Below, piece after piece: positions 31,201 to 34,200 of a DNA stretch of 64,000 nt (position 1 is the stretch's first letter; each line of letters opens with the position of its first letter). The position numbers were made by a program, and so were the translations under genes. The stretch comes from Xiphias gladius (Eukaryota > Chordata > Actinopteri > Istiophoriformes > Xiphiidae), in contig NC_053415.1 of assembly GCF_016859285.1 (NCBI RefSeq), positions 17,927,001 to 17,991,000 on the forward strand. Direction: 5' to 3'. The notes beneath the pieces were generated by a model. The model worked only from the letters and a program-made list of their open reading frames with translations, searched no databases and was not told where the DNA came from.

Positions 31201-34200
31201 TTTTTTCTAAAAAAAAAAAAAAAATGTAAGAATATGGTGAAAAATGTCCATCAGTTTCATAAAGTCCAGGGGGATGTCTACAGATTGCTTGTTTTGTCTG
31301 AGTAACAGTCTAAAACCCGAACATGTGCAATTAACTGTCAAATAAGGCAAAGAAAAGCAGCAAATGCTCACGGTTGAGAGGATGAAACCTGTGAATATTT
31401 TTGATTGAAAAAAAGAGAAAAAAATGACTTAAATGATTAACTGATTATCAAAAATAACTGTCTATTAATTGAAGGCTCACCTCTGGGTCGTGTCTGTGGT
31501 CGGGTTCCTCTGCTGCTCTGAGCCTCGCTGGCCTCCTCGAACCAACGAGACAACATGTCTGACATCCGCTGCATCAGAGAGACATTTGGGCTCTGTTCCC
31601 CTACAAGAGTGAGTGAAGGAAAAATACCTCAAGATCGTGTTAACTATTCACACTACTAGACATCACACAAGATCCAGCTTACATACAGTTTCAAATAGGA
31701 GGCTGCTGCAAGATTTGGACTTGACTAGTCCAGAGGGTTGTTATTTCTTTTTGGGTCCTTGGAAATAAAATGTATTGATTGAATGATAAAGGGAAAAAAA
31801 AAAAAAGAGATAAAAGTGTAAAAGCTGGCTGTTGTCTGTGACGGAGCAAAATTACAAAACATTTTACGGCTAAACTTAAAAGAAAAAAAAAATAAATAAA
31901 TTATATATATATATATATAAATGATGCTAGAGGAAACGAGAAACACAATCACAGTTTCAGCCTCTTTCATGCTCCGAATGTTGGCCTCGCTTGATCAGAT
32001 CAGGTATACACACTCACACACATCTATAAATATACACATCTTACCGTCTCTCTCTCTCTCACTTTCAGGGCGAGCTCGGGGTCCAGTGTCAGACCAGTCA
32101 CCTCGTAGACGGAGGCGCTTCACTGGAGGCTGCCTCAGCTTTGGAAACACACACAGACACACACACAGACACACACAACCACACACACAGACACACACAG
32201 ACACACACAACCACACACACAACCACACACACACACACAACCACACACACACACACAGAGAGAGAAAGATTTGCAGTTTGTCAGTCAAAGCATGGTCAAA
32301 AATAGCCCCGCTGCCAAAGCAAAACACTGCTCGTCTCTGTCAATGCCCCCTTTACAGTGCCCCCTCCCTTCTGGCTGCATGACTGAAGTTGCCTTCACTT
32401 TCCAGTCCCCTGGCTCTCTCTGCAGGGCAACAGGCTGAGAGCCAGAAATAGAAAAAGGGGGTCTTAGTGCAGGGACTATCAACTGCTTTATTTAGGAAAT
32501 GTCATCAGGTCTGGACATGGGCTGGAGGTGGTGAAAAGGAGCTGAGGATGAAAGAGATAGTAGAATAAATAAGAAAGAAAGAGACCCTGAACAAATGGGG
32601 TCGGGGGGGGAGTCTTGGCTGACCCCCCCCTCCTTCAGCCTGAACTATTTTTGAGGATAGAGGAACGCTGCCTGCGTCGGTCGCTGTATTTGGAAAGGAA
32701 TGTGTGTGGTGGTTGCATCTTGACACAGCTGAACACGAAGCTTTGAAACACTGGCACCATGATCTAGCACATTCGGTCACATGTGAGGCTGAGTATTCAC
32801 CGTGAACACTTGAGTTTATCTGAGGGCCGGTTTTTCTGGTTTTCCATTTATCTTATTTCCAAACGAAGTCCTCACCCAAACAGATTTAATGACCCAAATG
32901 TACATATGGAAGAAAGATGCTCATGTTTAAGATTTGATTTTACTAATAATCCATCATTTTTTCTTTCTCCATAACTGCATTTCTTCCCGCTCCGTTTTTT
33001 TTTAGGGTTATTTGCTCTCCTCAATGCACTACATCAGCCACTACAGATTTAGCACCAATGTTTGCAGTGCTCTCAGAGCAGCAGAGAGCAACAACAAGGT
33101 GCGCTTACAACAAACAAACCCCCCCCTCCAAAAACACAAAAAAAAACAGTTTAAATTGAATGCTCGATTGGCAATACGTGCTTGTTTTTTTTTTAAATCT
33201 TTTATGGTAAACATACAAGTAGTCCCAGTTAGGCACAGCTTCATACACTGGGCTACTCAGGGTTTTATGATTTTAATGTGGAGTATATGGAAGAAGAGAC
33301 ATAGATGTTTAATATATGGAAAGACGTTTGATGTAACCTTAGACTCTCACAACTTGATGGTCGTGTTGGGCATCGTTCACTCTGATCCTTAGAGCCAGGC
33401 TAGCAGCATGGCTCTAAGGACGGAAGCATTGGTTGATCCAGCGCTTTGGTCCACACTGAAATATCTCAACATTTATTAGATTGATTATCGTGAAATTTTG
33501 TAAACATTCATGGTCCCCACAGGATCTATCCTACTGATCCTCTAACTTTTCCTCTTCAAACCTTTTTGTTGATTCCTAAACATTTCCTCTGGCGCCATCG
33601 TCAGGTCAGAATTTTTAAACTTGTTCAAAACTTTAGCTTAGGACCAAATACCTGCAAAATTAATGATATTCCCAGCAGCCTCAGTTCTACTTTGTGTTTA
33701 GTGCTAATCAGCAAATATTACCATGCTAACATGCTAAACTCAGGTAAAACACACCAAAGTCAGGGTATTGCAGTGATTACAATTATTCCAATAGTTGTTT
33801 AGACACTTCGCTCAAAATGACACATCAACCTCCAGGTGGCGCTAAAGGAAAAGTCAGGGTATCACGTAAGTCATTGGGATTTATCCTCCAGGCACCATGG
33901 ATATCTGTTAAAAAATTTCACGGCAGTCCATCCAAAAGTTGTTGAGATATTTCAGTCAAACAGAGCTAAAATAACCATCCCTATAGCCCAGCTGCCAGCG
34001 TGGCTAAAAACACACAGTTCCCATCAGGACTCATGTGATGTGTGATGTCACGAGAAGCTGAATGACTCGAGTCTTCCCATGTTCTCACCTCCTCCCTCCT
34101 CTCCTCAGACGGGCCCTTTAGCTCTCGGGCCTGGTCATCTTTGGGATCGAACAGGTAGATGTAATCGGAGGAGTAGCTGACCAGCACCTCCTGACCGTCC

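Follow-up and report, generated by a model that had tools for sequence, protein, structure and literature searches.

The window analysed here, the whole stretch of DNA under study, comprises 64,000 nt of the forward strand of Xiphias gladius (assembly GCF_016859285.1, contig NC_053415.1, positions 17,927,001-17,991,000). On its minus strand, from 44,986 down to 19,151, lies a gene recovered by tblastn as 16 matching stretches with a human DCAF6 query. We take this gene to be dcaf6; a search of solved structures with its C-terminal peptide gave no match, and the name therefore rests on similarity to the human protein sequence. One of the stretches covers two exons, and the gene has at least 17 coding exons, whose numbers are tentative: the first stretch is weak (43% identity), and residues 500-637 of the human protein have no clear match. 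Near dcaf6, open frames at 5543-6046 and 9083-9886 (+) resemble exons of a gene that we take to be gpr161. Elsewhere in the window, an inverted repeat pair of 71% identity (634-846 and 2029-2231) flanks open frames resembling a transposase, presumably of the Tc1 type, and similar frames are found at about 54120-54806. A full-length SNORA23 match at 58524-58704 (-) scores 94.8 bits against an Rfam gathering score of 45 and lies between same-strand open frames, 57558-57722 and 59035-59211, that resemble exons of what is presumably rpl24. The host gene of human SNORA23 is IPO7, and the host gene here may thus be a different one.

The penultimate coding exon of dcaf6 occupies 106 nt at 19399-19504 (-) and was located by tblastn at 94% identity to human DCAF6 residues 804-839. 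It has the look of a real exon, with TTTCAAG before it, GTACAC after it and a translation of 35 residues, and it is the second-to-last of the coding exon blocks, the place assigned to it in the original prediction. A tract scan finds an 18-unit CA tract beside it at 19354-19389 (-; CA on the gene strand). Farther upstream in the gene, exon 8 (32045-32141, -, 5' limit approximate; tblastn, 94% identity to human DCAF6 residues 301-334) and exon 9 (31470-31600, -, 3' limit approximate; 82% identity to residues 333-376) enclose a 444-nt intron at 31601-32044 (-). We refer to it, tentatively, as intron 8; it has a GTAAGA donor from 32044 and a TTGTAG acceptor to 31601, with exon blocks on both sides. 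A long compound CA/TG-type microsatellite with many matches throughout the genome adjoins the exon 8 acceptor at 32140-32269.

Intron 8 contains, at 31922-32022 on the plus strand, an inverted partial copy of the penultimate exon and about 19 nt of the intron that follows it, antisense to dcaf6 and 23-123 nt past the intron 8 donor. A BLASTN comparison of the window with itself, which is the self-alignment that the original prediction had proposed as a check, recovers the pair: the copy aligns with 19380-19485 (-), a stretch made up of the 87 nt at the exon's end and 19 nt of intron, with 95 of 106 columns identical, six mismatches and one 5-nt gap (E = 4.6e-36). The match as first described, between 31922-32005 and the exon end plus donor GT, was reproduced in full (81 of 84 copy bases identical, three substitutions, 5 nt missing), and it extends beyond that limit to 32022. 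BLASTN and the tblastn exon blocks also bear out the inverted position claimed for the copy, between coding exons 8 and 9 and about 12.4 kb from its source. A repeat finder reports the same pair as 82-nt arms that are 95% complementary and 12,436 nt apart; of 219 inverted pairs, the 25 longest include this one as number 16, the other 24 being microsatellite pairs. By eye, the low-complexity part of the match amounts to the last 15 or so bases, and chance similarity between copy and source is excluded.

The limits of the copy are sharp. The exon's first 19 nt and the acceptor are missing from it; the donor GT and the intron bases beyond are kept. The boundaries are those originally described, a TA microsatellite on one side and CA-rich sequence on the other: the copy starts in mid-exon beside a (TA)9 tract (31902-31919, tract scan), and its other end is a short CA run corresponding to the CA tract of the source. 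Such a pair might in principle be an artefact of assembly or of a chimeric read, since it is known from one assembly only. We regard this as very unlikely, because 6 of 101 aligned bases and the 5-nt gap distinguish the copy from its source, as would not be expected of a chimeric read or a mis-joined duplicate, and because the copy lies within a 29.2-Mb contig, in a window free of N.

A DNA search of the whole 690.8-Mb assembly found the fragment in two places, the source and the copy. A protein search of the assembly with the exon's own translation returned the same two (the copy at E 1.3e-7), together with two weak matches at E = 1.21; these C20 matches were also all that it offered as a dcaf6 paralogue for polarising the changes. 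The copy is matched as well by tblastn with human DCAF6 residues 811-838 (E 5e-8). The local frequency of such pairs was estimated by comparing the window and 200 kb of neighbouring sequence (20 stretches) with themselves, 264 kb in all with 9,894 tandem-repeat bases masked. This gave 271 non-self alignments, counted from both sides. A low-copy filter, which required a length of 40 bp or more and a median depth no greater than 2, passed 29 pairs. Only the dcaf6 pair among them combines an identity above 90% with a length of more than 43 bp; the pairs that follow it in identity have 90.7% (43 bp) and 87.5% (48 bp). Pairs of this kind are not common in these 264 kb, a block chosen around the find and in that respect a biased sample that gives no genome-wide rate.

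The same comparison bears on whether the 3' end of dcaf6 could once have been duplicated in inverted orientation over a greater length, with the copy as what remained after later deletion of most of it. Large inverted duplications are a known class, as a report on them describes (PMC3907307), and the copy does comprise both exon and intron. At about 96% identity, though, a surviving flank should be recognisable, yet the similarity ends abruptly on both sides, and among the 29 low-copy pairs there is no other whose two members both fall within dcaf6. We consider this origin improbable.

The flanks of the copy were also compared with the assembly, in a search that passes over simple repeats and words of very high frequency, so that a repeat in the flanks could have escaped it. 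The flank on the TA side (31602-31925) matches two places elsewhere, only at query positions 277-322, which are an A-rich and a TA tract. For the other flank (32000-32700), matches elsewhere are confined to query positions 141-270, a CA-type microsatellite (59 matches including itself; 40 of 563 candidates scored). Scanned against Rfam at gathering scores, the window as a whole gave SNORA23 as its only match and no RNA family at the copy. Capture of the exon fragment by a transposon, such as a Helitron or Tc1-like element, is a conceivable route given the presumed Tc1-like sequence elsewhere in the window. With both flanks matching elsewhere only in a microsatellite and an AT tract (40 of 563 candidates scored for one of them) and the fragment having one other place in the assembly, we rejected a transposon vehicle and give this route next to no weight.

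The copy is flanked on either side by TATAAAT, a 7-bp direct repeat. As a target-site duplication it does not exceed chance expectation, since a repeat of equal length arose in 268 of 2000 shuffles and in 79 of 560 AT-rich 21-mers. We rejected a retroposed gene copy on this ground, together with the retention of the donor GT and intron bases and the absence of poly-A at the sense 3' end. The original prediction had gone further and called the copy a DNA duplication and not retroposition. That DNA was copied is the simplest account of the GT and intron bases carried along, and to this extent the claim holds; the exclusion of RNA is less strict than was stated, since an unspliced transcript holds these bases too. 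A piece of unspliced dcaf6 transcript could have been turned into cDNA and captured at a break, and the copy does lie wholly within the transcribed gene. The lack of poly-A at the sense 3' end, the chance-level flanking repeat and the proximity of the source, a mere 12.4 kb away and a better fit to DNA copying, lead us to rate such an RNA-templated insertion as distinctly unlikely.

We therefore favour, as the probable origin of the copy, a templated insertion made during error-prone repair or replication, which would have left a partial inverted duplicate of the exon that has drifted since and most likely has no function. This reading is preferred because the similarity is short, inverted and sharply bounded, breaking off inside the exon on one side and in a CA run on the other; because the donor GT and intron bases are included and the DNA search of the assembly gives the source and the copy only; because the flanks match elsewhere only in a microsatellite and an AT tract; and because the copy has its ends at or close to AT-rich and CA tracts. 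In addition, a template for the insert can be identified on the same chromosome. We infer that intron 8 would have suffered a break or a stalled fork next to AT-rich repeat DNA, possibly at the (TA)9 tract itself, and that this would have been healed by copying about 106 nt off the opposite strand 12.4 kb away. Copying would have begun or ended in the CA tract adjoining the penultimate exon, and the CA run is a plausible point for the template switch. The switch, the polymerase pathway and the absence of function belong, like the break, to the conjectural part of this account, and the insertion, with whatever microhomology its joints may have had, is deduced from the present-day sequence. In great apes, template-switch events are described as having an excess of A- and T-dominated motifs around them (PMC7954356), and inverted templated insertions are among the human germline variants of a survey that covered templates no more than 100 bp away (PMC8421209).

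The differences between copy and source are consistent with drift after such an insertion: a Pro-to-Ser change, other substitutions and the loss of one tandem 5-mer could all have followed it. At the exon's end stand three nearly identical 5-mers, ATCAC ATCAG ATCAG, of which the copy has two, so that the 5-nt gap is most simply read as loss of one unit by slippage. One C-to-T change turns a proline into a serine in the copy. That proline is presumably also found in human DCAF6, and we therefore assign both the Pro-to-Ser change and the gap to the copy. In the tblastn alignment the copy stays open in the frame of the exon over its 28 codons, with no gap or stop; the TAA counted by the protein search is at 31918-31920, just outside the copy. 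The 5-nt gap of the DNA alignment, close to the donor, would shift the frame, though the 28-codon alignment is ungapped. By these measures the copy appears not to be heavily decayed.

Substitutions number 3 in 84 bases (3.6%, Poisson 95% interval 0.7-10.4%) over the shorter match and 6 in 101 bases (5.9%, 2.2-12.9%) over the full one. At neutral rates of 3e-9 to 1e-8 per site per year, these values would allow an age from less than 1 to about 43 million years. The suggestion that the event was recent is only loosely supported, 3 substitutions in 84 bases leaving an interval from less than 1 to tens of millions of years. Ongoing conversion between the two arms, the alternative offered in the original prediction, finds no support in this pair of sequences. 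As far as can be judged from them, the observed differences would require neither a very recent origin nor gene conversion.

We considered whether the copy might act in the dcaf6 pre-mRNA as an RNA arm, pairing with the penultimate exon and its donor and so changing splicing, editing or circular-RNA formation. The predicted duplex of the two arms is strong, at -146.3 kcal/mol, where 200 shuffles of one arm average -30.3 and go no lower than -41.3, and in C. elegans reverse complementary matches in flanking introns are described as promoting both back-splicing and exon skipping (PMC8330042). Against this, any recent inverted copy would automatically yield a strong duplex. With a length of only 444 nt, intron 8 would probably be removed before pairing could occur, the partner exon being transcribed 12.4 kb later. 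Were such pairing real, a repair scar would have become a cis-acting RNA switch controlling a C-terminal coding exon through skipping, back-splicing or editing; we think this most doubtful.

The templated insertion that we favour can be set beside two described groups of events. Like microhomology-linked templated insertions of the MMBIR type, the dcaf6 copy is short and inverted and has its template on the same chromosome; in the survey that describes them, the templates called for inverted insertions lie within 100 bp (PMC8421209), whereas this 101-nt copy is 12.4 kb, much farther, from its own, and its joints are known here from one genome. With short-range template-switch mutations it shares inverted local copying beside AT-rich tracts (PMC7954356). 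The product itself is a clean fish example of a short inverted exon fragment within the gene's own intron. Short-range template-switch mutations are reportedly far more local than 12.4 kb.

As a fragment of a gene's own exon, placed on the opposite strand in that gene's surroundings, the dcaf6 copy resembles the pseudogenic exons that Morais and Harrison (2009) report from four mammals, at 270-581 per genome and 0.4-1.0% of genes, with 12-22% of them opposite in strand to the parent gene (PMC2718932). That survey, by its own account, accepts similarity to an exon of the same gene at E up to 1e-4, in the gene itself or no more than 5 kb away; the copy matches at a BLASTN E of 4.6e-36 and lies inside intron 8, on the plus strand of a minus-strand gene. 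The published definition also asks for a disabling frameshift or premature stop, by FASTX and GeneWise (PMC2718932). The dcaf6 copy, cut off in mid-exon, has on the one hand the 5-nt gap that would shift the frame and on the other 28 codons that are still open. The published class, moreover, is one of mammals, was detected by protein similarity and has a modal identity of 40-50% (PMC2718932), and the dcaf6 copy, in a fish, is much closer to its source. Judged on its sequence, we regard the fragment as the same kind of thing as the published pseudogenic exons on the opposite strand: real, correctly described and ordinary. By itself it alters no understanding of dcaf6 or of genome evolution. With its template, extent and changes all directly readable, it is a useful worked example of the scar that a templated insertion would leave, of the same kind as these pseudogenic exons and much nearer to its source.
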